The notes under the pieces are model-generated. The model searched no databases. It had not been told where the DNA came from and saw only the letters and a program-made list of their open reading frames with translations. A stretch of 64,000 nucleotides of DNA from Terriglobus saanensis SP1PR4 (GTDB lineage: Bacteria > Acidobacteriota > Terriglobia > Terriglobales > Acidobacteriaceae), in contig NC_014963.1 of NCBI RefSeq assembly GCF_000179915.2, forward strand, positions 682,001 through 746,000, given 5' to 3'. Made by a program: the position numbers and the translations under genes. Positions 9,071 to 63,028 of this stretch are shown piece after piece (the first letter of the stretch is position 1; the number at the start of each line of letters is the position of its first letter).

Positions 9071-9189
9071 CGTGCGATAACGCTTATGGAAAAGTAGTAA
9101 AAGCGTGGGCGAGTAGGAAAAACTTGCCCAGTCTTCTGCAAGGAGGTGCATTTTCCCTCGTGAAATTGAGGAAAGTGCAAATTTTCGTT

Positions 9190-9204
9190 TGGCGCATGAA
9201 GTGC
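9190..9204 (+). promoter_or_regulatory. Weak sigma54-like -24/-12 element before PEP-CTERM gene
   Basis: TGGCGC-N5-GTGC keeps the GG-N10-GC spacing of sigma54 promoters. It ends only 12 bases before the ATG at 9217, so the transcript would be leaderless. The element is also an imperfect inverted repeat (TGGCRC/GYGCCA), so it may instead be an operator or chance. It is listed because two other PEP-CTERM genes in the window have better matches. Confidence 0.25.
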
Positions 9205-9216
9205 CATACCGAAGGC

Positions 9217-12352: not shown

Positions 12353-12853
12353 CTAGCGGCAGGGCGAAATAGAACCCGGGCTGCTGGCTTTGTGCAGGCC
12401 AAGGATGTGGAACTCGCGGATCTGGTGGCGCATCACGAAAACCAGCCAGTTGTTTCCTGTCGGATCCGTGGGCTTCAAGTAAAAGCCCTTTTCTTCAAGG
12501 ATTCCCATGGAGTTTTCCGTCATTCCTTCCAGGACCTCTCCATCGGTAAAGGTAATCTGGACCCAGAGGCACCCCATCGGCTCGCCGTCATGGAAGCGGA
12601 TATCGTCGTGGTCCCTGTTTCCCTCAAAGCTGTTCACAAAGAAGATGCCCTTGGCATCCTGAATGGAGACGTCCTCGGGTGTGGTGGAGCCGTCCCGCGT
12701 GATCGTCATCATCCGCTCTTCTGAATGCGGAGAAAAGAAGGAGGACCCTGCGGTCTGGTTCCAATGGCTACTGTCGAAGTGCCCTTTAATAATCGAGTCG
12801 GCGTAACGAATGACTACTTTTGTGTCGGCAGCGATGGAAGTGTCCTTTGGCAT
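12353..12853 (-). CDS. Conserved beta-rich protein of unknown function (DUF6982-like)
   Basis: This protein of about 166 residues starts at the ATG at 12853. It has two copies of a short beta-rich unit: VVIRYADSIIKGHF...DAKGIFFVNSFEGNRDHDD, and WVQITFTDGEVLEGMTENS...FYLKPTDPTGNNWLVFVM. I know this pattern from small proteins and regulator-linked domains in acidobacteria and other soil bacteria, probably DUF6982, though the accession is from memory. It starts eight bases after the stop of the sigma54 activator and is almost certainly co-transcribed, so it may modulate that protein. No catalytic motif or signal peptide is visible. Confidence 0.7.
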   Translation of the reverse strand: MPKDTSIAADTKVVIRYADSIIKGHFDSSHWNQTAGSSFFSPHSEERMMTITRDGSTTPEDVSIQDAKGIFFVNSFEGNRDHDDIRFHDGEPMGCLWVQITFTDGEVLEGMTENSMGILEEKGFYLKPTDPTGNNWLVFVMRHQIREFHILGLHKASSPGSISPCR

Positions 12854-12861
12854 AATTCGAG

Positions 12862-14262
12862 TTACCTGCGTGCCAGATCGTATTGTTTGATTTTGTAAAG
12901 CAGAGCCTTGTAGCTGATCTGCATCTTGTGAGCAGCGGCTTTGCGGTTCCACTTCGTCTCTTCCAGGGCTAACGCAATCGCAGATGCCTCGGCGTCACCC
13001 TTCAAGCTCTTGACAAGCTGCTTCAAGCCAACATCTCCACCCGGATCGGCGGCTCCGTTGGTAGGTGCGGCCGCAGGCATGCGTGTAACGATATCGGCGA
13101 GGATGGACTCTTCGTCTCCGATAATCAAATACCGGTTCATCACATTTTCCAGCTCGCGCAGATTACCCGGCCAGGTGTAGCGGGTCAGAGCAGCCATCAG
13201 CGCGGGAGAGATCGGCAGCGGATCGCGACCATACTTGTCCGAACCCTTCTGCATGAAGAAGTTCGTAAAGGTAGCAATCTCCTCCGGACGCTCCCGAAGT
13301 GGAGGCAGCGTGAACGAAAAGCCGTTGAGGCGATAGTAAAGATCTTCTCGGAAGGTCTTCGCGGCCATCGCCGCCTTCATATCGATATTGGTCGCAGCGA
13401 CGACGCGAACATCCGCTTTCATGGGAGCGCGGCTGCCCAGACGGGAGAAGGTGCCGTCCTGGAGTACGTGCAGCAGCTTCGCCTGCAAAATTGCGGGCAT
13501 CTCTCCGATTTCATCCAGGAAGATCGTCCCGCCATTGGCGATCTCGAATTTGCCGGGCTTCGTTTTCAGAGCGCCGGTGAAAGCTCCCTGCTCGTAACCG
13601 AAGAGCTCGCTCTCCAGAAGATCTGCGGGCATGGCTGCGCAGTTTACCTTCAGAAAGATCTTGTCGCTTCGGAAGGACATGGCATGTGTGTACTTGGCCA
13701 GAACTTCCTTGCCGGTGCCGCTTTCTCCCAGAATCAGGACAGGGATATCCGAACGGGCCACGAGCCTGGCCTGCGTCTCGATATCGCGCATGCGCTTGCC
13801 CGACCGCACGAAGGAAGTATTGTCTCCAAGAGGAGTGACCACCACCTCATTCTTCGTGTCAGGCGAATCGATCTCCGCGATCTGGCGGTCGATGGCCTCG
13901 TGCAGCTCCAAAGCCGAAAAAGGGCGACGGACGATCTCGCGTACGCCGGCGGCGGCAATCTGACCGATATCGTTTACATCGGAGCTCGAAGTCGAGAGGA
14001 TGACAGCCGCCTTGGAGGCGATCACCTGGGAAACAAGTCCCATGGACTGCTCTTTGCTGATCCAGGGAAGCAGAGCTACATCGGGTCCGCTGCCGCGCTC
14101 AATCTCTGCGAGGAACTCGGCCTGGTCGGAGAACATCCGCACAGCGTAGCGCTTCCCCAGAATGGTGTTCATGTATTTCAGCAAAGGCAGGTTCTGCTCG
14201 AGAACGAACACCTCTGGTTGGCCCAGCTCCGATTTGCTCTCGTGCGACTTGAGGGAAGACAT
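12862..14262 (-). CDS. Sigma54-dependent activator with degenerate receiver domain
   Basis: This protein of about 466 residues starts at the ATG at 14262, which has GGAG just upstream. The first 120 residues fold like a receiver but lack the phosphorylation machinery: the acidic pocket reads VLEQN, the phosphoacceptor position reads LLPW, and the lysine is arginine (VRRPF). The AAA+ domain is complete: Walker A GESGTGKE, the sigma54-contacting GAFTGA loop in [13 protein letters not shown], Walker [20 protein letters not shown] and [10 protein letters not shown]. The C-terminus is a Fis-type helix-turn-helix ([20 protein letters not shown]). By position it parallels PrsR, the regulator of PEP-CTERM/EPS loci, but it cannot be a normal phosphorylated response regulator. 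Confidence 0.9.
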
Positions 14263-14656
14263 CAGACTCCAAAAACTCGAAAGGATAAATGCATTCCATT
14301 GTTGCTCAACGCTTTGCCGTTTCATGCCAGGGAGTCGCGGCATATTTACAATACGGCGCGTCTATCTGGGCTGCTGCAGGCACATCATATTCTTTTTGAT
14401 ACATTTCTCAATGCAAAATGGTGCACTTGTATGCCATAGACGGCAAAGCTGATTCTATTATGATGCCAAAAATGAACTGTTTTTCGCCTAACTTGCAGGC
14501 GATTGCGGATCTTTAGACTATAGGGCGAAATGTTTTCCACCCATCCCCAGAAGGTGGAACATTTATACCCAAAAATAGTGACTTTTTGGTTACTTTTGTT
14601 CAGAACCCAGAAATTAAGTGGAAAACAGGCAACTTGCGATTGGCCGTCAAGGTGCA
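14263..14656. promoter_or_regulatory. Divergent control region between the two sigma54 activators
   Basis: About 390 bp of A+T-rich DNA separate the two activator genes. It contains the 27-bp motif at 14554-14580 that recurs at 36752-36778, and the inverted pair TTTTCCACCC/AAGGTGGAA around 14533-14559. I could not find a good -24/-12 element in either orientation, so the activators are probably expressed from sigma70 promoters that I cannot place with confidence. Confidence 0.5.
14554..14580 (+). repeat. 27-bp conserved upstream motif, copy 1
   Basis: The motif runs GTGGAACATTTATACCC and continues to AAAAATAGTG. It matches 23 of 27 positions with the copy at 36752-36778. The four differences are all transitions. 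It lies 77-103 bases before the ATG of the receiver-less sigma54 activator. Confidence 0.6.
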
Positions 14657-26536: not shown

Positions 26537-27838
26537 CTAGTGACGTCCTACATGAATAGAGCTGGGAGCAAATGTGATGCCGACGCCGATCACATGCGTG
26601 ACGCCGTTGTAAGCGTTCAGCGTCGACGACACACCGCTTACGTTCTGCGTCTGCGCCGTGTAGCTGAGATACGAAGAAAAGTTCCGGCCAAGTCTGCGTG
26701 AAACCTGCACTCCGCCGTAGAAACTGTCGGTGCCCGGTTGCGGCAGCGTCGAAGTGAGCAGCCCTGCAGTATGGGCATAGTTGCCTGAGAGCGAGCCGGA
26801 CCAGTTGCGATCCAGTTGGCGCTGCACCACGAAGCCTACGTTGTCCGTGGTAGCTCCAAGTAATACACCCGAACCCGCGTTCACGCCCTGGTAATAGGCC
26901 AGGCTGGCTTGGGTGCGTTCGCCCCTGTAGTTCAGGGCCGCGCTGACCGAAGCGCTAAGACGCGCCGGAATCACGCCAGAGACTGAGCTGCTGCTCGTCC
27001 ACTGTGGACCCGCGGAGAGGTCCATCGAAAACCTCTTGCTCAAGGCTCGCTCGAACGTCGCATTCACACCTTGCGAGTTGAAGGACAGGTTGCCCTGGTT
27101 ATACAGGGGCGAGGCTCCGTAGTTGAACCGCGAGAAGACATAGTTCACGCCAACGGAGTCCCGCGCATCGATCCGGTGCTGCATGCCGACCGTTGCCATG
27201 GCCTGGGAGTTGTCGATTCCGATGTCGCTCAGAAACCGCTGTATCGTATACGACCCAGAGGCCTCGACGGATGTGCTTCCGGTGATCTTTAGCTCAGCGC
27301 TACCGCTCGCCGTATTCGTGATGCGCGTGGAGTAGTAGCTCAGGACGCTCTGGCTGCCGATGGGGTTGACCGGTATGGTCCCGATATCTCCCACGCCCGC
27401 CACGCCGGAGAATCCGGTCGTCGGCGAAGAAGGCAGATAGCTCACAAAGTCGGCTGCAACGAGAGTCCACTTCCGCGTCGCCAGTACCTGCGAGACGCCG
27501 AAGTTCTGAAAGGTCCCGGAGGGCTGTCCCGATGTGTTGGAGAAGAGATAGCCGCCGGAATAGAGCAGGCTCGTCGGATGTCGCTCGCTCGCCGTGATCA
27601 GGGACGCGGTGCCAATGATGTTGGTCGAACTCGTGGTGCCATTGTTTCCATTCGCACCGACGAGGACGGTCTCCGACGCGCCGAGAGAGTAGTTGAGCGT
27701 ACCGCCCAGTTGGGGTGCGCCCAGCGAGGGGCCTGCCTGAATCGGCGGAACGATGACCGTAGGCGCCGCCTGCGAGTAAAGGCGAGGGGCCGCGAGGACG
27801 GTCAGTAGTGAGAGGGTGGTAAGCAGTGTCTTGTTCAT
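26537..27838 (-). CDS. Outer-membrane beta-barrel protein of EPS locus
   Basis: This 433-residue protein has a signal peptide (MNKTLLTTLSLLTVLAAPRLYSQA). The rest alternates polar and aromatic/hydrophobic residues, as in outer-membrane strands (for example VGVNYVFSRFNYGASPLY and RTQASLAYYQGVNAGSG). A beta-barrel of this kind occurs in many PEP-CTERM EPS operons next to the Wza-like gene. It probably helps polymer cross or anchor at the outer membrane. Start and upstream stop share TAATG, so translation is coupled. I cannot name a specific family with certainty. Confidence 0.8.
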   Translation of the reverse strand: MNKTLLTTLSLLTVLAAPRLYSQAAPTVIVPPIQAGPSLGAPQLGGTLNYSLGASETVLVGANGNNGTTSSTNIIGTASLITASERHPTSLLYSGGYLFSNTSGQPSGTFQNFGVSQVLATRKWTLVAADFVSYLPSSPTTGFSGVAGVGDIGTIPVNPIGSQSVLSYYSTRITNTASGSAELKITGSTSVEASGSYTIQRFLSDIGIDNSQAMATVGMQHRIDARDSVGVNYVFSRFNYGASPLYNQGNLSFNSQGVNATFERALSKRFSMDLSAGPQWTSSSSVSGVIPARLSASVSAALNYRGERTQASLAYYQGVNAGSGVLLGATTDNVGFVVQRQLDRNWSGSLSGNYAHTAGLLTSTLPQPGTDSFYGGVQVSRRLGRNFSSYLSYTAQTQNVSGVSSTLNAYNGVTHVIGVGITFAPSSIHVGRH

Positions 27839-28476
27839 TACGGCACCACGATCGTGTCGCCGGATTGAAGCGCGATTCCCTGGACATCGCCCTTCAGAGC
27901 GCTCTTGTAATTAAACGGAATCTTGATCTGCTTTCCCTGCGTGCCACGCAGGATGTAGATGTGCTTGGAATTTGCAAACGCCGTCAGACCGCCGGCCGCG
28001 GCGATGGCCTGCAAGGGAGTCATTCCGGCAGAGAGTGGGAGCGGCCCTACCTTCTGCACCTCTCCCACCAGAAAGATGCGATGGCTGTTGACGGCTGCCA
28101 CCAGTACCGTCACATTCGGGTCCTGGATATATTTCTTCAGACGCGTGCTGATATCGTCGCCCAGCTGCATGGGAGTCCGGCCAGCGGCCATCAGGTCGCC
28201 CAGAAGCACAAGCGAGATCATTCCATCTGGACGGACCGGGAAGGTTCCCGAAAGGCTCGGCTCTTTCCAGACCGTGACTTGCAGAGAGTCATCCGGACCG
28301 ATGACGTAGTTGGCAGCAATGCCGGCATCCGGGGTGGTGCTGGCGGGCCCTGTCCCCTCGGGTGTCACCACCTTGGTCGCCTGTGGTGCAGGCGTGACCA
28401 GCGGCTTCACCTGGGCGGAGAGAGCACCGCCCGAGAGTAAACAAAGCAGTACAAGGGTGCAAACTGTCAATCTCAT
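27838..28476 (-). CDS. Wza-type polysaccharide export protein
   Basis: This exported protein of about 212 residues starts at the ATG at 28476, which opens a good signal peptide (MRLTVCTLVLLCLLSGGALSA). An upstream extension to 28566 would run into the promoter. The Poly_export domain reads YVIGPDDSLQVTVWKEPSLSG...PVRPDGMISLVLLGDLMAAGRTP, followed by one SLBB-like segment (NSHRIFLVGEVQKVGPLPLSAGMTPLQAIAAA, in two parts). No lipobox cysteine is seen, unlike classical Wza. It is the first gene of the EPS operon (Wza, barrel, Wzz, ATPase, BY-kinase, transferase, GT2). Confidence 0.92.
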   Translation of the reverse strand: MRLTVCTLVLLCLLSGGALSAQVKPLVTPAPQATKVVTPEGTGPASTTPDAGIAANYVIGPDDSLQVTVWKEPSLSGTFPVRPDGMISLVLLGDLMAAGRTPMQLGDDISTRLKKYIQDPNVTVLVAAVNSHRIFLVGEVQKVGPLPLSAGMTPLQAIAAAGGLTAFANSKHIYILRGTQGKQIKIPFNYKSALKGDVQGIALQSGDTIVVP

Positions 28477-28549: not shown

Positions 28550-28565
28550 TGCACAACAGTGGCCA
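28550..28565 (-). promoter_or_regulatory. Candidate sigma54 promoter of the EPS export operon
   Basis: Read on the minus strand the element is TGGCCACTGTTGTGCA. It has GG-N10-GC spacing and matches about 8 of 11 informative positions of TGGCAC-N5-TTGCW. Transcription would start near 28540, about 64 bases before the ATG at 28476. It is the weaker of the two divergent sites in this region. Confidence 0.45.
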
Positions 28566-28746
28566 AACGGGAAGTTTCCGGGGTGTGGAATAAAAAACTT
28601 ATCAGTTGCTAAGAATCTCAATCAACCACTTGGAGATGTATTGCGTGAGTGAAAACTTTTGCAGGGTAAAACCGAAGCATTTTGGTACTACTTGCTAAAT
28701 CTTTACCACTATACTCAGGCTGCATGCATGACATACACAAAATCTT

Positions 28747-29721
28747 GTGCCATACCCAACGTGGCCTGTCAATTGCAGTGATCTTCTCGTGATTGAAATT
28801 GAAAATACAGCGGTAGTGGGACACGTCGACACTTCCGCGGCAGCAGGCAGCTTCTCTCCGAACTTCGGGACGTGGAAGCAGCAATCCCGTGCCCTCCTTC
28901 CGCAGGCCTTGGTTGTCGGTATCTTCCTCGTCCTTCTTTACTGGAAGGTCAGCATCAAGCTCGTCTCCGACTGGTATCTCCTGCCGGATTTCTCTCACGG
29001 ATTTCTGATCCCGTTTTTTGTCGCATTTCTTCTTTGGGACAGACGTGATCGCCTCGCGGCGGTGCCGATTCGCCCCAGCTGGGCGGGCTTGCAGCTCGTC
29101 GTCTTCGCCATTGTGGTGCTCATGCTGGGCATCTACGGCGCAGAGCTCTTCCTCTCCAGGATCTCCTTCGTCTTTCTGCTTGCAGGCATCGTCTGGACCC
29201 TCGCTGGCTGGCAGATGCTGCGCGAACTCCGTTTTGTCTTCTTTGTCATGCTCCTCGGCATTCCCCTGCCGGCTGTGCTCTTTAATCAGATAACGTTTCC
29301 GCTGCAGCTCATGGCCTCGCGTGTGGCCAGCGCTATGCTTCCGCTCTTCAACGTGCCAGTGCTGCGCGAAGGCAACGTCATTCAACTCGCTTCCATCCAG
29401 TTGGAAGTCGCAGAGGCCTGTAGCGGCATCCGGTCCTTAATGAGCCTCTTCACCGTCGCCGTTCTGTACGGCTACTTCATGCAGAAATCCAGAAGAAACC
29501 GTGTCCTGCTTGCACTCGCCAGCGTGCCTATCGCGGTTGCCGCAAATGTCTTTCGCATCGTGGGAACGGGGCTTTGCGTACAGTATTGGGACCCGGACAA
29601 GGCATTGGGTTTTTTCCATGAGTTTTCCGGCTGGCTCATGTTTGTCCTCTCGCTTGTCTGCTTGCACTTCGTGAATACACTGCTTTCAATCCGACGTTGG
29701 AACAAGGGGAAAACAGTATGA
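28747..29721 (+). CDS. Exosortase (EpsH/XrtA family)
   Basis: This polytopic inner-membrane cysteine protease/transpeptidase recognises PEP-CTERM tails; about 324 residues with about eight membrane helices. The catalytic triad is visible: Cys in VAEACSGIRSLMSL (about 225), Arg in VAANVFRIVGTG, and His in GFFHEFSGWLMF. An early conserved loop reads YLLPDFSHGFLIPFF. The start is uncertain: GTG at 28747, GTG at 28789 and GTG at 28816 all lack a good ribosome binding site, and the candidate sigma54 promoter would exclude the first. The stop overlaps the EpsI start (ATGA). Confidence 0.93.
   Translation: MPYPTWPVNCSDLLVIEIENTAVVGHVDTSAAAGSFSPNFGTWKQQSRALLPQALVVGIFLVLLYWKVSIKLVSDWYLLPDFSHGFLIPFFVAFLLWDRRDRLAAVPIRPSWAGLQLVVFAIVVLMLGIYGAELFLSRISFVFLLAGIVWTLAGWQMLRELRFVFFVMLLGIPLPAVLFNQITFPLQLMASRVASAMLPLFNVPVLREGNVIQLASIQLEVAEACSGIRSLMSLFTVAVLYGYFMQKSRRNRVLLALASVPIAVAANVFRIVGTGLCVQYWDPDKALGFFHEFSGWLMFVLSLVCLHFVNTLLSIRRWNKGKTV
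28762..28777 (+). promoter_or_regulatory. Candidate sigma54 promoter of the exosortase operon
   Basis: TGGCCTGTCAATTGCA has the GG-N10-GC spacing and a perfect TTGCA -12 part, about 9 of 11 informative positions. It predicts a start near 28788, right at or just before the GTG codons at 28789 and 28816. It is divergent from the element at 28550-28565. Confidence 0.5.
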
Positions 29722-30368
29722 AGTCACCCCGGTTTCTCGTTCTCACTCTTCTTCTGCTTTTAGCCACTGGCGTCGTCTACTCCCGTGCCGACACGGACCG
29801 CGTGCCTCCGAGCACACCGCTGGACCAGCTTCCTAAAACCATCGATTCGCGCTCCAGCAACGAGATTCCCATCAGTCCGGACACGCTGCGTCTCCTTGGG
29901 AGTGGCAGCTTCCTCCATCGCATCTATCGAGGAACCACCCCTAGCGGCCTTCCCGACGACGCAAACGCGATCGGGCTTTTTATCGGATACTTCCCCACAC
30001 AGCGGACAGGCCAGGCCATCCACTCCCCGCAGAACTGCCTGCCCGGAGCGGGATGGACGTTTCTCTCCTCTCGTAAGATTTCGCTCAATGGTATGGAAGG
30101 CGATGTCGGAGAATATGTCATTACCGATGGAACGGCGAAGCAGCTTGTCCTCTACTGGTACCGTTCCCACGGGAGAAGTATCGCCAGCGACTACGCAGCG
30201 AAGGCTTATATGATGGCAGACGCGATCCGCTATAACCGTACGGATGGCGCTTTGATCCGCGTCATCACACCGATGAGGGAACAGGAGTCGATGGAAGCCG
30301 CGCATGATCGGGCGACTCAATTTGCCTCGCAGCTGGTTACTTTGCTGCCAGAGTACATCCCGAATTAG
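29718..30368 (+). CDS. Exosortase-associated protein EpsI
   Basis: This protein of about 216 residues starts at the ATG at 29718, which overlaps the exosortase stop. It has an N-terminal membrane anchor or signal (FLVLTLLLLLATGVVYS). The periplasmic EpsI domain reads IGLFIGYFPTQRTGQAIHSPQNCLPGAGW, in two parts, followed by VLYWYRSHGR and a C-terminal RVITPM region. EpsI is either fused to or encoded right after exosortases in EPS-linked systems, exactly as here. It is thought to assist polymer or substrate processing; the biochemical role is not established. Confidence 0.92.
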   Translation: MKSPRFLVLTLLLLLATGVVYSRADTDRVPPSTPLDQLPKTIDSRSSNEIPISPDTLRLLGSGSFLHRIYRGTTPSGLPDDANAIGLFIGYFPTQRTGQAIHSPQNCLPGAGWTFLSSRKISLNGMEGDVGEYVITDGTAKQLVLYWYRSHGRSIASDYAAKAYMMADAIRYNRTDGALIRVITPMREQESMEAAHDRATQFASQLVTLLPEYIPN

Positions 30369-30438
30369 ATTGCAAAATTTGCGCTCGTTGAACGAAGCGC
30401 GGAACCACTATATTGACTGACTTGGAAGGAAACACTCG

Positions 30439-32733
30439 ATGTCGAAGCCAACAAATCATTTCAAAATTCAGACCTCGGGCCTGATTGCACTCTGTCTCGT
30501 GACTGCCAGCATGGCCGGATGCTCGCGCGACCCCAATGTTCAAAAGGTCAAATACCTCGAAAGCGGCAAGCGCTACGAGAAGAGCGGCAAGTATAAAGAG
30601 GCCGCAATCCAGTTCGCGAACGCACTGAAAGCGGACAAAAACTACGGCGAAGCCCACTATGAGCTGGCGAAGAGCTACATCCAGATGGGCATGATGCAGG
30701 CTGGATATAACGAACTGGTTAAGACTGTGGAGTTGAGCCCCAGCAACATTCAGGCGCGATTGGACACCGGCAATCTCGCGCTTGCGGGCGGACAGCCCGA
30801 CGCCGCGGAGGTCCAGGCCAAGGCCGTCCTCGCTGCGCAGCCCAACAACGCCGATGCCTATGCCATGCTCGCGAATGTTGCGATCCGTAAGGGCGATACC
30901 CCTACCGCTCTCACGCAGATCGGCAAGGCCCTCGCCATCGACCCCAACCGCGCTGCCTTCCACGCAACCTATGGGATGCTGCAGACTCTTAACCCGGCTA
31001 CGCTTGCTCAGTCGCAGGGCGAACTCGCCAAGGCGGTCCAGCTCGATCCCTCCAACGCCGGTGCGCATCTTGGCCTTGCGGCCATCCTGGAAAAGAAGGG
31101 CGACGTCGCCGGAGCAGAGCAGCAACTCAACGCCGCCGTCTCTGCGGATCCCAAAAATCTGCAGGCGCGTGTCAGCCTGGCTGCGCTCTACATGCGCTCC
31201 AAAGATCAGCCCAAGGCGGAAGCGGTTCTGCGCAAGGCGACAGAAGACCTCTCCGAATCGACGCAGGGCTCCGACCTTCTGCGAAGCTATTATGCACAGC
31301 AGAACCAGATGGACCGAGCAGAGACCGCTTACGCCGACCTGACTGCCAAGCACCCCGGAAGCGTTCCTCTGAAGCTCGTCTACGCCCACATCCTCGTAGG
31401 CCGGGGAAAGATCGCACAGGCGACCGAAGTCTCGAAGGAACTGACGAAATCCAAGCCGAAAGACCCGCAGGTCGTCGTGCTCAACGCCATGCTTATGCTC
31501 AATGCGGGCAAGGTCGACGAGGCGAACAGTGCTCTTCAGGAGGCTCTGAAAGACTCTCCAGACAACCCGACCGTTCGTCTCTGGGCGGGTATGACCGCTC
31601 GCGCCAAGGGCGATATTCCCGCGGCGCAGCAGGACTTTCAGCAGGTACTGCAGGCTGAACCAGCCAACTTCGGTGCACAGAAAGGTCTCGCTGAAATCGC
31701 CAGCAGCAAAGGTGACTTCACTCTGCTTCGCCAGATCGCGGAGAGCACGATCGCCCGGTATGGAAATCTTCCCGATGGTTATCTCTGGCGCGGCACTGCG
31801 GAAGCCAATGAGCACGATCTGGACAAGGCCGCCGCAGACTTCCAGATGGCTTTGACCAAGGATCCCAACAACTCCGCAGGTCTGTTCGAACTGGCGCAGA
31901 TCCGCATCGCGCAGCATCGCGTCGACGATGGACGAAAACTCCTCGAACAGGCAGTTTCGTCCAGCGCCAATGCCCAGGCGCTTCATCTCCTGACGGCGTT
32001 GGACATGCAGGCGAAGCAGCCGGACAAGGCCCTTGCTCGCATTCAACAGCTCATCGGCCGGTTTCCCCAAAGCGGAGCGCTCTACGACGAACTGGGCGCA
32101 GTGCAGTTGAGCCAGCATAACGGCGCCGGTGCAATTGCAAGTGCGCAAAAGGCGATGGAACTCAACCCCTCTGACGCTCAGGCGGTCAAGATCTACACGC
32201 AGGCGCAGATTCTTACCGGCAACGTCGGACCTGCTATCGCCAAGTGGGAGCAGTGGATCGGCGCGCATCCCAAGGATCCGCAGGGGTACGCTGTCCTGGG
32301 GCTTCTCGAAGAATCCGCTGGCGATCCTACCAAGGCGATGGAGTACTACAAAAAGACCCTTGAACTTCAGCCGCAACAGCCTGCTGCTTCGAACAACCTC
32401 GCCTACCTGATGGCGGAGCACGGCCAAAACCTGGATGTAGCGCTCACCCTCGCACAGACCGCCCGTCGCGGTCTTCCCAACTCCGCCAGCACGGACGACA
32501 CGCTGGGTTGGGTCTACTTCCGCAAGGGTCAGTATGACTCGGCGCGAAGCTATCTCGAAGATGCCGCCAAGCTGGATCCCAATAACGCGTCCATCCACTA
32601 TCACCTGGGTATGACCTACAGCCGTCTCAACCGGAAGCCAGACGCTCAGGTTCACCTGAACAAGGCCATCACCCTCGCTCCAAACACCCAGACCATGAAA
32701 GATGCTACGCAGGAACTACAGCGCCTGGGGTAA
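30439..32733 (+). CDS. Large TPR-repeat lipoprotein of exosortase locus (PrsT-like)
   Basis: This 764-residue protein has a lipoprotein-type N-terminus (LIALCLVTASMAGC, lipobox cysteine at about 29). The remainder is continuous tetratricopeptide-type helical repeats of about 34 residues (for example YKEAAIQFANALKADKNYGEAHYEL and QYDSARSYLEDAAKLDPNNASIHYHL, given in pieces). PEP-CTERM/EPS loci encode a large TPR protein, PrsT, of this kind, probably a periplasmic scaffold. It follows EpsI by 70 bp and ends at a strong terminator, closing the exosortase operon. Confidence 0.9.
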   Translation: MSKPTNHFKIQTSGLIALCLVTASMAGCSRDPNVQKVKYLESGKRYEKSGKYKEAAIQFANALKADKNYGEAHYELAKSYIQMGMMQAGYNELVKTVELSPSNIQARLDTGNLALAGGQPDAAEVQAKAVLAAQPNNADAYAMLANVAIRKGDTPTALTQIGKALAIDPNRAAFHATYGMLQTLNPATLAQSQGELAKAVQLDPSNAGAHLGLAAILEKKGDVAGAEQQLNAAVSADPKNLQARVSLAALYMRSKDQPKAEAVLRKATEDLSESTQGSDLLRSYYAQQNQMDRAETAYADLTAKHPGSVPLKLVYAHILVGRGKIAQATEVSKELTKSKPKDPQVVVLNAMLMLNAGKVDEANSALQEALKDSPDNPTVRLWAGMTARAKGDIPAAQQDFQQVLQAEPANFGAQKGLAEIASSKGDFTLLRQIAESTIARYGNLPDGYLWRGTAEANEHDLDKAAADFQMALTKDPNNSAGLFELAQIRIAQHRVDDGRKLLEQAVSSSANAQALHLLTALDMQAKQPDKALARIQQLIGRFPQSGALYDELGAVQLSQHNGAGAIASAQKAMELNPSDAQAVKIYTQAQILTGNVGPAIAKWEQWIGAHPKDPQGYAVLGLLEESAGDPTKAMEYYKKTLELQPQQPAASNNLAYLMAEHGQNLDVALTLAQTARRGLPNSASTDDTLGWVYFRKGQYDSARSYLEDAAKLDPNNASIHYHLGMTYSRLNRKPDAQVHLNKAITLAPNTQTMKDATQELQRLG

Positions 32734-32747
32734 CTTTTACGACTCCC

Positions 32748-32790
32748 AAAAATATGACCAGCAACGCTTCGTTGCTGGTCATATTTTTTT
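32748..32790 (+). terminator. Rho-independent terminator after the TPR gene
   Basis: AAAAATATGACCAGCAACG (32748-32766) pairs perfectly with 32770-32788 around a CTT loop, followed by T residues. With 19 bp and no mismatch it is one of the clearest terminators in the window, and it ends the exosortase-epsI-TPR unit. Confidence 0.92.
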
Positions 32791-33167
32791 GATCGCCAGA
32801 GCAGCTCACCATTTGTCACTCCGCTGCGTTCTTGTGCTTCTACTACTCCTTTGTCATCCAGTAGCGCAGCGAAGGGATCTGCTGTAAAAACTGGCAAGCT
32901 GTATCACCTCCGCATAAGCAGCAACATCCGCTATGGCGGGAAATCTGGGGGCATCGCCTTCAGGATCGCAAGGCATGAGGCCTTCCGCTACATAGCCGAC
33001 TGAAGATAAATGCCGCTGGCGCTGCCATCGCCGGCAGGGGAAGTGAGCTTGCAGGCGCAAAGCAAAACGATCGCAGCGGCGCGAAGGGCGACGTCCACTC
33101 GTCACCCGTTACACCCGGGGTGACCAAAAATAGAGGAAGTGGGAATGCTTTTCTCTTAATTTGGGGC
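32791..33167. other. Intergenic region with repeat fragment, no gene seen
   Basis: The stretch contains a family C repeat fragment (about 32857-32885, minus, AGCGAAGGGATCTGCTG) and a short inverted pair GTCACCC/GGGTGAC near 33100. Reading frames in both strands lack start sites, family motifs or plausible composition. I see no gene. Confidence 0.5.
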
Positions 33168-33210
33168 AAAAAAAAGCCCGTTTGCGAGCGGGTTGGCTCG
33201 CAAACGGGCT
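33168..33210 (-). terminator. Rho-independent terminator of PEP-CTERM gene
   Basis: On the minus strand AGCCCGTTTGCGAGC pairs with GCTCGCAAACGGGCT around a six-base loop and is followed by a run of eight T (A-run at 33168-33175). The stem is 15 bp and perfect. It lies 14 bases after the stop of the gene at 33225-33779. Confidence 0.92.
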
Positions 33211-33224
33211 ACTACTTTTTAGAA

Positions 33225-33779
33225 CTAAGCCGTGAGAGTACGACGACGACGGAAGAACGCGCCCGCGGATCCAACCAGGCCGGTGCCAAGGAGGAAGAGC
33301 GTGCTGGGTTCAGGCGTCGGTGCCAGTGCTGTAGCCGAGAAGGAGACGACCGGGGTCTTATCACCAAACTGCGAGCTCAACGAGAACGTACCATCCGTAA
33401 TGACTCCGTTGAGGTCAATGGTTGCAAGGCCCGTAAGAGCGAGAGCTCCAGGTGTGTTCACAATCGTATCCAGCGAGTCGAAGAAGATCGTCAATGTGTT
33501 GGAGCCTTCCGTGATCGAAAAGATCTGGAACGGCGTAAAGATGGGGCTGAAGGTGAAGCTGTTTGCTGTCACTGCGGCGGCACTATCGAAAATCGTGAAA
33601 GAACCGGTCGTCGTAGCTGCCAGGACAGTAGGGTTGCCAACGAAGGTGAAAGAGGTGCTGTTATACGAGTTCGCGCCAGTAAAGGAGATTGCCCCGATCG
33701 TATCGGCAGAAGCATACGTAGAGGAACCAAGCAGAACGGCGAGAGCAACGAACAATTTAACTAAGAATGATGCTTTCAT
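33225..33779 (-). CDS. PEP-CTERM protein, small beta-rich
   Basis: This 184-residue exported protein starts at the ATG at 33779. The signal peptide reads VKLFVALAVLLGSSTYASA. The middle (about 25-150) is rich in S, T, F, N and G with alternating beta patterns (FTGANSYNSTSFTFVGNP) and no cysteine, as in other small PEP-CTERM proteins of unknown function. The tail is canonical: APTPEPSTLFLLGTGLVG from about residue 153, a hydrophobic helix, then FFRRRR. It is monocistronic, with a sigma54-like promoter about 110 bases upstream and its own strong terminator, so it may be highly and conditionally expressed. Confidence 0.9.
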   Translation of the reverse strand: MKASFLVKLFVALAVLLGSSTYASADTIGAISFTGANSYNSTSFTFVGNPTVLAATTTGSFTIFDSAAAVTANSFTFSPIFTPFQIFSITEGSNTLTIFFDSLDTIVNTPGALALTGLATIDLNGVITDGTFSLSSQFGDKTPVVSFSATALAPTPEPSTLFLLGTGLVGSAGAFFRRRRTLTA

Positions 33780-33896
33780 GAGCGCTCCATATAAATAACC
33801 GCTGATCGCGGGAGTTGTCGTGCGAGCATCCCGCAACCAGTAACTTCTCTACGCCGTGCGAGAAGGAACTCTATGGAGATAGCTCGATAGAACATC

Positions 33897-33913
33897 TTGC
33901 AACTGATGTTCCA
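33897..33913 (-). promoter_or_regulatory. Candidate sigma54 promoter of PEP-CTERM gene (best match)
   Basis: On the minus strand TGGAACATCAGTTGCAA matches TGGCAC-N5-TTGCW at about 10 of 11 informative positions with exact GG-N10-GC spacing. The predicted start is near 33887, giving a leader of about 108 bases before the ATG at 33779. This is the strongest of the -24/-12 elements I found. Confidence 0.65.
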
Positions 33914-34057
33914 AAGTAAAGAGGGCGATGATCTTTTTATTGCCTAAAAAACAGCAGGAATTCAGGGGGAAAAACTTGCAAACAAATGCTCAAGCTTAGG
34001 CAAAATAACTGCAACATCTTCTGTTCTGTCTTGATAGTGGAAGCGGAACGAACTCGG

Positions 34058-34687
34058 TTATTTCCGCTTCCGATAAGCAATACGGGCTAAACCAGCAACT
34101 CCACTGGCGACCATGAGCAGCGTATTCGGTTCCGGCACCGCTGGCGGAGTCGGCGGAATCACCGGAGGTCCGATCGGAGGTATTCCAGGTCCCGTCGGAA
34201 TCGACGGGCTGGAGGGGATGATCGGTGACTCCGGTGTGACCGGCGGAACCGTTCCCGTAATCGTGGGCGGAGGCGTATCTACGGGAACATTGTTTACCAC
34301 TCCCGGTGTGAACGGACGCGTAAGTGCATATGCAGGTGGAGGATCCGGGGGAAGCACGGTTGCCGTCTCGTCATTTGGAAGATCTCCGCAAACAATCTTG
34401 AAGCGCTTCATCATCTCTGCCGGCGTCAAATGCGGACGGCGCGGACGAGGATGATCGGCCACCGTGACAACACGGGGCTTCGGCTTGACGTAGCCCGCAA
34501 CCTTGCGTTTGGCGTAAGCGCGAGCGCGACGTTGTGCCGTCACAGCTCGACGGACTCGCTGGTCGTTCTCGAGCTTCTGTCGATACTCAGCCACCCATTT
34601 CGAACAGTCCGGTGAAGCCGCGACTGTTCTGGCTGTTCCTACAGACACAGTCAGCAAAAGAAGGGTGAGGATAAGGCGACGACGCAT
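34058..34687 (-). CDS. PEP-CTERM protein with basic N-domain and proline-rich stalk
   Basis: This 209-residue exported protein has a signal peptide (LILTLLLLTVSVGTARTVAA) and a basic helical region (about 25-90, QRRARAYAKRKVAGYVKPKP) with two cysteines in the mature part. From about 110 to 183 there is a Pro/Thr/Ile/Gly-rich stalk (PPTPPAVPEP), likely an extended spacer that projects the N-domain. The tail PEPNTLLMVASGVAGLARIAYRKRK (in two parts, from about residue 185) is a PEP-CTERM variant with PEPNT. It has its own sigma54-like promoter. Function unknown; it could bind the acidic exopolysaccharide through its basic part. Confidence 0.85.
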   Translation of the reverse strand: MRRRLILTLLLLTVSVGTARTVAASPDCSKWVAEYRQKLENDQRVRRAVTAQRRARAYAKRKVAGYVKPKPRVVTVADHPRPRRPHLTPAEMMKRFKIVCGDLPNDETATVLPPDPPPAYALTRPFTPGVVNNVPVDTPPPTITGTVPPVTPESPIIPSSPSIPTGPGIPPIGPPVIPPTPPAVPEPNTLLMVASGVAGLARIAYRKRK

Positions 34688-34737
34688 TCAGGGCTCCCGG
34701 GGTGGCATCAGTCCAAGCTGTGCACTACACGTGTGTA

Positions 34738-34753
34738 AGCAGATGGGATGCCA
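34738..34753 (-). promoter_or_regulatory. Candidate sigma54 promoter of stalked PEP-CTERM gene
   Basis: On the minus strand TGGCATCCCATCTGCT keeps GG-N10-GC and matches about 9 of 11 informative positions. The predicted start is near 34727, giving a 40-base leader that includes GGGAG before the ATG at 34687. Confidence 0.6.
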
Positions 34754-34848: not shown

Positions 34849-36378
34849 CTACTTTTCCAGGTGATAGATCTTCAGGTCCCCATAATAGGGATCGACTACT
34901 TCTCCAACCAGCTTGCTTTGGACTTCTAGGTCTTTGAGGTCCTGGTTCAGCTCCAGGTAGAACCTGTCATCCGGCTCTCCCTGGGTCATCATGCGGTCGC
35001 CCACAATAAAATACCGCGCTCCGTAGAGGTCTGCTGCCATGTGCGGCGTGGTTCGCTCATAGGAGATAAAAGGATGATCGTGAAAAGCCAGCCAGAAGGT
35101 GATCGTCCCGAAAACCGTCGCATTTACTGGCACAAAGGCACGAAGCTTCGCGCCGAGCTCCGAATAGTTTGCCTTCCTGGCATTGTGGAGGAGAAGAAAA
35201 TTGGCAGATGCCTGCACGACGACCACCGCTAAAGTGCCGTATGTTAACCACCTGCGGAGATTGGCCCGTTCTTCCGTCGCGCGAATCGCAGCTCCAACCG
35301 CCAGGGCAAAAAGCGGTCCAACGATCGCCACATAGCGGGACGACTTGTTCACGGTATAGATCAGCCACAGTATAGAGGGGACAAGAAGCACCAGTTCCAC
35401 ATAAAACCAGCTCCGCTTGTATCTCCAAAGCAGGTAAGACGCGAAGAGGAAGAAGAGAGGGATCGGCAGGCGAACTGGAAGAGAGCCCAGATGTCCCGAA
35501 AGCATGTGGAAACCGAGAACGTCTGAATATCTCCTTCCTTCATGCAAAAACTTTTCCAAAAGTGGAACTTTTATGGCCCTGTTGAGGAACTCCTCGTGGA
35601 AACCCTCCAAACCCCGTGGAGCTGTGAAAATCCATAGAGCAAAGGGGACAAGTCCTATGGCAAAGCCAATCCAATAGGTCAAAGCGCCGCGAAGGATGAA
35701 ATCCCCGCGCTTCTTATCGAGGAAAAGGAAGAGTAAACCGAAAGAGATGAGATAGCCCAGCAGCGTAATGTGAAACATCGTTCCCGCCGCCATCACGAGT
35801 CCGCAGGCAAAGGCGTAGGCTGGCTTTCGCAAGTTCGCATACTTTTGCAGTGCCAGCAGACCGGCGAAGATACACATCGTCGTCAGCGCCTCGGGCCTTG
35901 CCGTACGCGAGGTCAGCACAAGCAGGTTATCGGTCGCGATGACGAATGTCGCACAGAGGGCCCCCGGAACTCCGAAAAGTTCCCTTGAAAGCCTATAGAC
36001 CAATACGACGACCAGCAGGCCAGCGAGAACAGACCCGATGCGCGCTGCAATCTGCCCCGTGCCGAAGAGCTTGAAGCCAGCGGCGATCACAAGGGCTGTG
36101 CCCGGCGGCCGCGCGTCAAAGTGGTTCTCCAGTTCATTCGGTCCAAGCGCCGGATCGCGCATCCCGTCGCCATGCACCAGGGAATAGGCCGGTGCGGCGT
36201 ACCAGCTCTCGTCCGTCACCCATCGATACGACAGAAACGGAAGCGTCTGCAGCAGAAAAAGCGCAATCGCCGCCAGAAGCCAGAGGTGTGTCCGTCTGGA
36301 AGTCGGTCTCCCGGTAGGAGGCGTCGATAGATCAGGCTGGTTGGGACGAGACAATAGGACCTCCGGAGACAGAGTCAT
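34849..36378 (-). CDS. Family 39-type membrane glycosyltransferase (ArnT/PMT-like)
   Basis: This protein of about 509 residues starts at the ATG at 36378; the in-frame extension upstream lies in repeat DNA. A first helix (LLAAIALFLLQTLPFL) is followed by the catalytic-type acidic loop YRWVTDESWYAAPAYSL, then by RPPGTALVIAAGF and about ten more helices to residue 395. The C-terminal 110 residues are soluble and periplasmic. The Asp-Glu in the first external loop is the usual GT39/GT83 active site for sugars carried on polyprenyl phosphate. It ends the surface-polymer island and may glycosylate lipids, proteins or EPS. Confidence 0.85.
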   Translation of the reverse strand: MTLSPEVLLSRPNQPDLSTPPTGRPTSRRTHLWLLAAIALFLLQTLPFLSYRWVTDESWYAAPAYSLVHGDGMRDPALGPNELENHFDARPPGTALVIAAGFKLFGTGQIAARIGSVLAGLLVVVLVYRLSRELFGVPGALCATFVIATDNLLVLTSRTARPEALTTMCIFAGLLALQKYANLRKPAYAFACGLVMAAGTMFHITLLGYLISFGLLFLFLDKKRGDFILRGALTYWIGFAIGLVPFALWIFTAPRGLEGFHEEFLNRAIKVPLLEKFLHEGRRYSDVLGFHMLSGHLGSLPVRLPIPLFFLFASYLLWRYKRSWFYVELVLLVPSILWLIYTVNKSSRYVAIVGPLFALAVGAAIRATEERANLRRWLTYGTLAVVVVQASANFLLLHNARKANYSELGAKLRAFVPVNATVFGTITFWLAFHDHPFISYERTTPHMAADLYGARYFIVGDRMMTQGEPDDRFYLELNQDLKDLEVQSKLVGEVVDPYYGDLKIYHLEK

Positions 36379-36463
36379 CTTACGATGCCGAACTCTACAA
36401 GTTGCTGGGCATTCGTAGCGATTGAATGCTTCCGGAACCAAAAGGCTACGGACGCCGCATCCG

Positions 36464-36616
36464 ATCGCGCTCCGCGCGATACCAACAGATCTCTCCGCTA
36501 CGCGACGATAAAGCTGTCGCTCCGGTCGAGATGACGGAGATCTCACCCACCCCACATCACCACCGTCATTTTCGACCGAGCGCGTAGCGGGAGCGGAGAA
36601 ATCTGCTTTGTTATGC
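36464..36616 (+). repeat. Dispersed repeat, family B (about 150 bp), copy 1
   Basis: The element matches the reverse complement of 43495-43649 over its whole length with few differences, by eye near 90%. Each copy is itself an imperfect palindrome: CAGATCTCTCCGCTACGCG near one end mirrors CGGGAGCGGAGAAATCTGC near the other, with GACCGGAGCG/CGGTCGA parts inside. It resembles a REP/BIME or MITE-type intergenic element. The first bases of the window (GAGAAATCTGCTTC) look like the edge of a third copy. Confidence 0.8.
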
Positions 36617-60937: not shown

Positions 60938-63028
60938 CTATTTGTGGATCAACTCACGAAACTCAGCAGCCGGTAGCGGCTTACTGAAGAGGTATCCCTG
61001 GCCTTCTTCGCAGCCTTGCTTCTGTAGAAAATCTCTCTGCGTTTCGGTTTCGACACCTTCCGCGATCACGCGGTATTTGAGCCCCTTCGCCATGGCGATA
61101 ATGGCGCATATCAGTGTGGAGTTCCTCGGATCTGCTGTAAGAAGATGGACGAACGATTTGTCGATCTTCAGCACATTGATCGCAAATTGATGCAGATAAC
61201 TCAGGCTGGAGTAGCCAGTTCCAAAATCATCCACCGCCATGTGGATTCCCATGAGCTTCAGTTCATTGAGCACTGCGATTGAGGTCCTAAGATCCTTCAG
61301 AAGAATACCTTCGGTGAGCTCAAACTGAATGGACCGAGGGGTCAGCCCGGTCTCTGCGAGTGCGGCGCGGACGCCCTGAATGAAGTCTGTATCCCGCAGT
61401 TCGGCCTCAGAGACGTTGATGGAGATCGGTAAGACGACCCCGCTCGTCAACTCCCAGAGTCTCGCCTGCCTGCAGACTTCATGCAGCACCCAACGGCCTA
61501 TGGGAATGATCAGGCCTCGATTCTCCGCAACTCGAATAAACTGGTCGGGCAGCAGGAGTCCGCGATGCGGTTCCTGCCAACGAATCAGCGCCTCGGCCCC
61601 CGTGATCTTCCCGGATTTGAGGTTTACCTTGGGTTGATAGTAGAGAAGGAACTCGTTCTGTTCTAACGCGCGGCGCAGGCCGGATTCGACAAACTGGCGT
61701 TCGATCGCCTGAAGCTTCATCTCGTCGCTGAAAAAATGCACCTGGTCGCGTCCATTCTCTTTGGCCTCATACATCGCCAGGTCCGCGTTCTGGATAAGGC
61801 TATTGGCGTCCTTTCCATCTCGGGGATAGATGCTGATTCCAATGGTGGCCGTAATTTGCAGCGTTACGTCGTCGAAGAGGAAGGGCTCACTCAACGCGGC
61901 GAGTATTTTTTTGGCGCTGATCTCGGAGTCGTTCTCCTCCTCGATCTCTGGCAACAAAACAATAAATTCATCCCCTCCATGGCGGCCCACAGTATCTGAG
62001 GCGCGCACGCTTGCCTGAAGCCGTTTTGCAACGGCTTGAAGGAGTTTGTCTCCAACGGCATGCCCTAAAGAATCGTTAATGGATTTGAAGTGGTCCAGGT
62101 CCACGAACATCACGGCAAACTTCTGTTTGTGCCGTTGTGCCGTCGTAATCGCATGAGAGATTCTGTCGTTCAGCAAAAGACGATTCGGCAGCGCCGTAAC
62201 CGCATCGTGGTGCGCCGCGTACGTCATCTCGATGGTCATCGCGCGTGCCACGCTCACATCGTGAAACACGATAACGGCTCCGATGACTGCGCCGGAACGA
62301 TCGTGAATCGGCGCTGAGGAATCTTCAATCGTTGCTTCTCCACCGCCCCTGCGAAGGAGAAGAGAGTTGGACGCAATACTGACCGCTCGATTCTGTTCAA
62401 TGGCCTTCTTGAGAGGATCGGCCGCGGGCTGTCTGGTTTCTCCGTCGATAATCACGAAGACTTCGGCTAAGGGTTTGCCCAGGGCTTCGTCGCGCTTCCA
62501 GCCGGTCAGGGCTTCAGCCACAAGGTTCAAAAAAATAATCTTTCCCGAAAGATCCGTGCAGAGAACGGCGTCGCCAATAGAGTTCAGAGTGACAAGGGCG
62601 CGGTCTTTTTCCACATATAAGGCATCTTCAATGGATTTGCGTTCGACCGCGTTGCGTAAGGCACGTGGAAGCGAGTAACGGTCGATGTGATTCGGAAGGA
62701 GATAATCCTGTGCGCCGCACTCTACTGCTTCGACAGCAAGAGCTTCCTGATCTTCTTCGCCCAGAATGAGAATCGGCACGTTAGCGGCGACGTAGAGCAG
62801 ACTCTTGACCGTTGCTATGCCCTGGCTATCCGGTAGAAACGGATTAAGCAGAATGGCTGCGACTTTAGCGTTGTCGCGACGCAATCGCTCAAGGCCTTCG
62901 CTGAGTTGAGCAACCTCCTCAAGTTCAAATAAGTCATCTCCCGAACTCGCAAGGGCAGTTCTGACTTTTTCAGAGAGAGCTGAATTTTCATTCATCAAAA
63001 GAACTTTTGTAGGCGAGCTCAGTTTCAT
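60938..63028 (-). CDS. GGDEF-EAL protein with degenerate receiver and PAS domain
   Basis: This 696-residue cytosolic c-di-GMP enzyme has a receiver-like domain at 1-125 whose phosphoacceptor is asparagine (AAILLNPFLPDSQG) and whose acidic pair reads MNENS, so it is not phosphorylated normally. A PAS domain (about 140-265, ALVTLNSIGDAVLCTDLSGK) precedes the cyclase domain with an intact GGDEF (GRHGGDEFIVLLPE). The phosphodiesterase domain also has an intact EAL set: GAEALIRWQEP, DDFGTGYSSLSYL, KIDKSFV and AEGVETE. Both activities are therefore possible. C-di-GMP often controls EPS, so it may influence the polymer island. Confidence 0.94.
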   Translation of the reverse strand: MKLSSPTKVLLMNENSALSEKVRTALASSGDDLFELEEVAQLSEGLERLRRDNAKVAAILLNPFLPDSQGIATVKSLLYVAANVPILILGEEDQEALAVEAVECGAQDYLLPNHIDRYSLPRALRNAVERKSIEDALYVEKDRALVTLNSIGDAVLCTDLSGKIIFLNLVAEALTGWKRDEALGKPLAEVFVIIDGETRQPAADPLKKAIEQNRAVSIASNSLLLRRGGGEATIEDSSAPIHDRSGAVIGAVIVFHDVSVARAMTIEMTYAAHHDAVTALPNRLLLNDRISHAITTAQRHKQKFAVMFVDLDHFKSINDSLGHAVGDKLLQAVAKRLQASVRASDTVGRHGGDEFIVLLPEIEEENDSEISAKKILAALSEPFLFDDVTLQITATIGISIYPRDGKDANSLIQNADLAMYEAKENGRDQVHFFSDEMKLQAIERQFVESGLRRALEQNEFLLYYQPKVNLKSGKITGAEALIRWQEPHRGLLLPDQFIRVAENRGLIIPIGRWVLHEVCRQARLWELTSGVVLPISINVSEAELRDTDFIQGVRAALAETGLTPRSIQFELTEGILLKDLRTSIAVLNELKLMGIHMAVDDFGTGYSSLSYLHQFAINVLKIDKSFVHLLTADPRNSTLICAIIAMAKGLKYRVIAEGVETETQRDFLQKQGCEEGQGYLFSKPLPAAEFRELIHK

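Follow-up and report, generated by a model that had tools for sequence, protein, structure and literature searches.

Predicted sigma54 promoters and a candidate dedicated activator for exosortase and exopolysaccharide export genes in Terriglobus saanensis

We analyzed a 64-kb stretch of DNA (64,000 nucleotides; NC_014963.1, positions 682,001 to 746,000; hereafter the window) from the 5.10-Mb, single-contig genome of the acidobacterium Terriglobus saanensis SP1PR4. It carries wza, the first gene of an exopolysaccharide (EPS) export operon, divergent from an exosortase operon, with two PEP-CTERM genes close by and two genes for sigma54 activators, called ebp1 and ebp2 here. A reading made from the sequence alone (the sequence-only reading) had proposed a sigma54 regulon joining these genes through -24/-12 elements. 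We found all four elements in place and reproduced their match counts to TGGCAC-N5-TTGCW; only the third begins one base later than had been claimed, at 33898 and not 33897. The genes and elements are as follows (element scores are from a sigma54 matrix with a maximum of 19.4).

27838-28476, minus strand: wza (Poly_export and SLBB domains, Pfam), first gene of the EPS export operon
28550-28565, minus strand: predicted -24/-12 element of the wza operon, TGGCCACTGTTGTGCA, 8/11 positions, score 8.9
28762-28777, plus strand: predicted -24/-12 element of the exosortase operon, TGGCCTGTCAATTGCA, 9/11 positions, score 13.6
28789-29721, plus strand: exosortase, start uncertain (GTG at 28789 or GTG at 28816); TIGR02602, 194.9 bits, cut-off 105.55
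29697-30368, plus strand: EpsI-type protein, start uncertain; TIGR02914, 119.7 bits, cut-off 42.8
30439-32733, plus strand: PrsT-type TPR lipoprotein; TIGR02917, 314.9 bits, cut-off 312.2
33225-33779, minus strand: PEP-CTERM protein gene; TIGR02595, 28.1 bits, cut-off 16
33898-33913, minus strand: predicted -24/-12 element of the PEP-CTERM gene 33225-33779, TGGAACATCAGTTGCA, 10/11 positions, score 14.8
34058-34687, minus strand: PEP-CTERM-like protein gene, C-terminus PEPNT...RKRK, read directly
34738-34753, minus strand: predicted -24/-12 element of the PEP-CTERM-like gene 34058-34687, TGGCATCCCATCTGCT, 9/11 positions, score 12.6

All four elements combine the spacing of GG at -24 and GC at -12 with flanking consensus on the strands given, and rpoN is present in the genome; we predict that they are sigma54 promoters. 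Considering also the evidence from related genomes, we think it probable that sigma54 promoters, served by a dedicated activator, drive wza and its operon, exosortase-epsI-prsT and the pair of adjacent PEP-CTERM genes; this activator is most likely the ebp1 product.

The conservation of the sites, an activator box and the gene losses described below were obtained by computation on these genomes (G and L numbers are our handles for genomes and loci). An exosortase match was present in 72 of 150 related genomes. We counted 63 of the 69 relatives' loci that were fetched, keeping the T. saanensis locus as an extra and leaving out L025 (clipped contig) and L163 and L166-L169 (remote exosortases); sites were sought in the correct orientation from -130 to +45 around the exosortase start. 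A score of at least 12 was reached upstream of the exosortase gene in 10 of the 63 loci, compared with a mean of 0.35 and a maximum of 4 for 1000 permuted matrices and 2 for the opposite strand. On the divergent side the count was 12 (permuted mean 0.78, maximum 4; opposite strand 3). With a cut of 9 the two sides gave 19 (opposite strand 3) and 24 (opposite strand 10), so that, on either side taken singly, most loci lack a clear site. The wza element TGGCCACTGTTGTGCA has counterparts in G081 (TGGCAACTGTTGTGCA, 67 bp from the wza start) and G002 (TGGCCCTTTCTGTGCA, 84 bp), and the exosortase element TGGCCTGTCAATTGCA compares with TGGCAGGTCAATTGCT in G002. According to a sequence search, wza is divergent from the exosortase gene in 16 of 64 loci; among the 15 relatives with this arrangement, 5 have a site of at least 9 directly before wza, 4 of them scoring at least 12. 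Sites in relatives thus go beyond chance, the weakest case being the wza gene of T. saanensis itself. We also observed a gene resembling those for bacterial enhancer-binding proteins (bEBPs) of the AAA+ type between wza and exosortase in 6 of 20 larger relatives' loci (L050, L052, L053, L056, L057, L060); these six lack GAFTGA and form a clade of their own in the activator tree.

A separate signal lies between the divergent promoters. An unsupervised search for palindromic motifs in 29 upstream regions returned GGGAAAA-N2-TTTTCCC with a log-likelihood of 132.6, compared with 29.4-38.2 in six shuffles (150 seeds for the real set, 100 per shuffle). Scored with a motif retrained without this genome (leave-one-out), the window holds the following boxes of interest, given without strand.

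28649-28664: predicted activator box (upstream activating sequence) in the wza/exosortase intergenic region, GTGAAAACTTTTGCAG, score 13.6, 0.008 expected in the region
33966-33981: possible activator box before the PEP-CTERM gene 33225-33779, score 9.9, 0.03 expected, 13th in the window
9114-9129: possible activator box before a third PEP-CTERM gene (start near 9217), score 10.0, 0.03 expected
14524-14539: possible activator box between ebp1 and ebp2, score 11.9, 0.03 expected

The box at 28649-28664 has the second-best leave-one-out score in the window. The one at 9114-9129 is tentative because only a weak -24/-12 site (8.7, at 9190-9205) lies between it and its PEP-CTERM gene. The core GGAAAAACTTGC, taken from 33966-33981, occurs exactly five times in the genome; two copies precede PEP-CTERM genes, and all nine TIGR02595 matches are over 2 kb away from the remaining three. 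The palindrome GGAAAANNTTTTCC was found at 16 places in the genome, with one mismatch each. None of these is at the exosortase gene, so the local box has diverged. When the motif was applied to 35 distant upstream regions outside the training set, 6 reached a score of 12 (permuted mean 0.56; equalled in 1 of 500 permutations). The regions upstream of ebp2 were never used in training; among the 17 available from relatives, 11 had a box of at least 12 (permuted mean 0.78; equalled in 1 of 500 permutations), and in 10 of the 17 a -24/-12 site of at least 9 lay between the best box and ebp2. The spacing from the box to the -24 element of the exosortase gene was 60-312 nt in 15 loci (median 89), with 10 of the 15 falling within 60-108 nt. 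Pairwise alignment of the intergenic region, in which background identity was 0.53-0.59 with free gaps, was left unused as evidence.

The genome has ten strong PF00158 matches, of which two, divergent from each other, lie in the window.

12353-12853, minus strand: DUF6982 gene (PF22478), starting about 9 nt past the ebp1 stop
12862-14343, minus strand: ebp1, sigma54 activator with a degenerate receiver; PF00158 and PF02954, no PF00072; GAFTGA, Walker A and B, Fis-type helix-turn-helix
14618-15838, plus strand: ebp2, PspF-like activator without a sensory domain (Pfam); GAFNGA loop; ebp2 clade in the tree

The two activators of the island reported by the sequence-only reading are therefore both present, but only one has an intact GAFTGA. 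The ebp1 product combines an AAA+ domain carrying Walker A and B motifs and GAFTGA with a helix-turn-helix, as is typical for a bEBP; the helix-turn-helix is conserved among relatives, and every one of the 21 ebp1 proteins examined has kept GAFTGA. In ebp2, GAFTGA is altered or missing in 5 of the 18 proteins examined: it reads GAFNGA here, and G006, G005, G011 and G035 (4 of 17 relatives) lack the motif altogether. Because of these changes, ebp2 may have turned into an accessory protein or a brake. The best ebp1 match lies within 35 kb of the exosortase gene in 15 of the 17 genomes with both on one contig, at 14 kb here; the exceptions are G116 (59 kb) and G081 (241 kb). About 20 other genomes have the two on separate contigs, in some cases long ones (G046). 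These linkage counts were made by hand from the best ebp1 and exosortase matches. Across 13 near genomes, 8 with and 5 without ebp1, promoters of four kinds had sites in 19 of 24 versus 2 of 12 cases (p 0.0008, kinship ignored; the PEP-CTERM counts, 7/8 and 0/2, were entered by hand). All five near genomes without ebp1 retain rpoN, and the exosortase tree is compatible with one to three losses.

We infer that ebp1 is the activator that binds the box. It is unlikely, though worth weighing, that the promoters depend on sigma54 while their main activator is ebp2, a mixed ebp1/ebp2 hexamer or another activator of the genome, which has ten strong PF00158 matches in all. Relatives of ebp2 adjoin ebp1 in many genomes and the recognition helices of the two proteins are alike (ISYRSLLYKL for one of the two), but the state of GAFTGA, intact in 21 of 21 ebp1 proteins and changed or absent in the ebp2 of this genome and four relatives, argues for ebp1.

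The receiver of ebp1 has changed in this lineage. The 11 relatives with a kinase have D, D, D, S and K at the key receiver positions, compared with E, Q, P, T and R here, and thus neither the phospho-acceptor Asp nor the acidic pair of a two-component receiver is present in the T. saanensis protein. In those 11 relatives, whose receivers are intact, a histidine kinase gene adjoins ebp1; the three kinases tested contain only HisKA and HATPase_c and look soluble by eye. Kinase orthologs were detected in 11 of 27 chosen genomes (E 6e-61 or better; all other matches 5.7e-33 or weaker), and these are exactly the 11 genomes with an intact ebp1 receiver. A tree of 43 activators places the 21 ebp1 proteins together in one clade (support 99/97). 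The ten kinase-less ones, including that of T. saanensis, form a single nested clade (100/100), so the kinase was probably lost a single time. The phospho-acceptor Asp is kept in three of the ten (G055, G035, G079) and lost in seven.

A DUF6982 gene follows ebp1 in 10 of 10 kinase-less genomes versus 1 of 11 with the kinase, one of these 11 loci (L189) ending about 515 bases after ebp1. We found the gene at L170-L177, L182, L183 and in the window, its presence tracking kinase loss; up to E 1, no relative of solved structure was detected for DUF6982. It is a possible substitute input to ebp1. Elsewhere in the window, a GGDEF-EAL type protein is encoded at 60938-63028 (minus strand), a possible link to cyclic di-GMP. 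A broader evolutionary reading, tentative and on balance doubtful, would be that a two-component sigma54 system for exosortase and EPS export was taken apart in one clade of Acidobacteriaceae-like genomes, the clade losing the kinase once, then the receiver site and, in several members, the GAFTGA of the partner activator, with DUF6982 as the new input and the operator and DNA-binding helix kept.

Activators of sigma54 generally contact sigma54-RNA polymerase through a GAFTGA loop and ATPase. We propose that one dedicated activator would switch on wza, exosortase-epsI-prsT and the PEP-CTERM genes 33225 and 34058 together. In this scheme ebp1 would bind GGGAAAA-N2-TTTTCCC, of which 28649-28664 is a weaker copy in the region separating the wza promoter from the divergent exosortase promoter, and would reach sigma54-RNA polymerase through its own GAFTGA loop and ATPase. 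Relatives still show what would be the ancestral form, a two-component system in which a histidine kinase is paired with an ebp1 whose receiver is intact; ebp2, itself preceded by a box and a -24/-12 site, presumably acts there as an amplifier. With the kinase gone and the phosphorylation residues of the receiver lost in the T. saanensis lineage, ebp1 would have to be controlled in another way: through its own level, through a ligand or through the DUF6982 protein, which is the first candidate.

How far the predicted regulon extends was assessed on PEP-CTERM genes. The gene 34058-34687 is not among the TIGR02595 matches; its orthologs end in PEPSS, PEPAT or PEPST followed by a helix and a basic tail. 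In three genomes (G002, G011, G005) these orthologs carry upstream sites of 10.8 to 12.6; no site was found before those of G006, G010 and G004. For 33225-33779, sites precede the orthologs of G002 (13.2) and G006 (11.8); three other PEP-CTERM genes of relatives' loci (L044, L049, L058) have none. Within T. saanensis, 3 of 10 PEP-CTERM genes examined had a site of at least 11 within 250 bp (1.8% expected each), and without the two genes flagged from the start 1 of 8 remained. A general PEP-CTERM regulon was therefore rejected. As 7 of the 10 genes lack a good site, the regulon is that of the island: the proposal is supported, by conserved sites and box, for both operons (wza and exosortase) with their two adjoining PEP-CTERM genes, and not for PEP-CTERM genes at large.

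Could the elements be chance GG-N10-GC matches before genes that use ordinary sigma70-type promoters? We consider this quite unlikely, but for reasons that differ from those first given. It had been argued that the additional matches beat chance; single-genome counts do not bear this out, since TGGCAC-N5-TTGCW with at most two mismatches occurs at 2347 sites in the whole genome, fewer than the 2755 of the reversed pattern. On such a genome-wide scan with the consensus alone the finding would fail, and we rejected consensus counting in one genome as uninformative. The window holds 42 sites scoring at least 9, and in samples of this genome the chance per 250 bp on one strand was 0.8% for a score of at least 12.5 and 6.6% for at least 8.9, so the wza site is not significant by itself. 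Chance matches are, in turn, hard to reconcile with site counts in relatives that exceed those of all 1000 permuted matrices and with an independently found palindrome between the sites. Hence, the sigma54 idea stands because relatives conserve the sites, not because of element counts in this genome.

Several observations weigh against a sigma54 circuit run by ebp1. The sigma54 scoring matrix was not trained on this material. A plus-strand site of at least 9 is missing from 44 of the 63 related exosortase upstream regions, and at that cut the opposite strand of the divergent side gave 10 loci against 24. No significant box precedes 34058-34687 (leave-one-out motif, 0.12 expected), and the two boxes that do precede PEP-CTERM genes come only 12th and 13th when the whole window is ranked. 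Box scores of 12.7 and 13.4 were obtained at two further PEP-CTERM genes that lack good sites. The best leave-one-out box of the window (35543-35558, 14.4) lies inside the reading frame 34849-36555. Among the 35 distant upstream regions only the 6 already mentioned reach 12 and only 2 reach 14 (12 of 500 permutations equalled). In T. saanensis itself no -24/-12 site precedes ebp2 (best 7.1). G006 has ebp1 and no clear -24/-12 pair; in G018, which has no ebp1, wza is still preceded by a site scoring 13.0, and G014 has one of 10.8; and G116 has boxes and no RpoN match. As side observations, the box at 35543-35558 coincides with a sigma54-like site scoring 13.5, and RpoN matches were absent from 10 of the 150 genomes (G009, G038, G069, G090, G092, G098, G099, G103, G116, G143), three of which are at least 90% complete and at most 5% contaminated; activator-like genes remain in the ten.

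FleQ of Pseudomonas is an activator with an unphosphorylatable receiver that controls EPS and flagella and whose ligand is known. It resembles what we propose for ebp1 in controlling EPS with such a receiver, and differs from it in its role in flagella; we know of no link between FleQ and an exosortase.

The closest known system is that of Proteobacteria, for which the available text of Haft et al. (2006; PMC1569441) describes an activator motif, a spacer of about 63 nt, a -24/-12 motif, the NtrC-like regulator PrsR, the kinase PrsK and the TPR protein PrsT. The T. saanensis island is similar in its order of box, spacer (60-108 nt in 10 of 15 loci) and -24/-12 element, in an NtrC-type activator near exosortase and EPS genes, and in a PrsT-type protein, whose TIGR02917 score exceeds the cut-off. 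It differs from that description in the box (GGGAAAA-N2-TTTTCCC, not a 17-mer ending TTTACA), in having two activators, with the kinase lost and the receiver eroded in this lineage, and in that the wza and exosortase operons themselves bear sites. A guessed palindrome for motif 1 (12 fixed bases, only the TTTACA end being given in the text of that paper) matched 2 of 64 loci with two mismatches and none with fewer; the box found here (14 fixed bases) matched 6 of 64 with zero or one. The sequence-only reading had noted the lack of a PrsK kinase, and indeed none of the 36 TIGR02916 matches genome-wide exceeded the cut-off of 300 (best 104.7 bits). It is very unlikely that the system is plain proteobacterial PrsK/PrsR: the layout is shared, PrsT is present and ebp1 matches the PrsR model TIGR02915 at 300.1 bits, but the cut-off of 502.6 is missed by ebp1, by ebp2 (248.2 bits; the genome's other eight activators were not scored) and by two intact ebp1 relatives (361.4 and 352.0 bits), the NtrC, NifA or AtoC models score about as high, no PrsK passes its cut-off, and motif 1, in the available text of PMC1569441, is 17 nt long, ends in TTTACA and is common to Proteobacteria only among the species considered there.

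Other systems share single features. The RpoN-dependent gene pepA of Aquincola tertiaricarbonis (PMC9850573, as far as its available text goes) is a PEP-CTERM gene under a sigma54 promoter whose start has been mapped; that strain has PrsK/PrsR, and the study leaves open what part the pair plays in expressing pepA. A response regulator of Desulfovibrio vulgaris, DVUA0057 (PMC3333781), binds upstream of predicted PEP-CTERM targets, as ebp1 is predicted to do; it is plasmid-borne in a sulfate reducer, and the available text validates no binding motif for it. Sigma54 has been linked generally to exopolysaccharide genes (PMC3162934) and, in Myxococcia, sigma54 sites to polysaccharide export proteins (PMC12316311); the terms Acidobacteri, exosortase and PEP-CTERM are absent from the main texts of both. 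Among the literature matches listed, with most subscription papers outside their coverage, no paper dealt with sigma54 control of exosortase in Acidobacteria.

Beyond the sequence-only reading, our analysis adds the activator box, the likely activator ebp1 and the loss of its kinase, so that an operator, an activator and a candidate input protein are now named for testing. The genomes compared, which range from those with a kinase and an intact receiver to those with a kinase-less activator, would provide a natural experiment on taking apart a two-component system. Overall, the best reading is a sigma54 circuit laid out like PrsK/PrsR, but with another box and a kinase-less activator; this would be a second phylum with such a layout, with its own operator and regulators and with the exosortase and exporter operons included.

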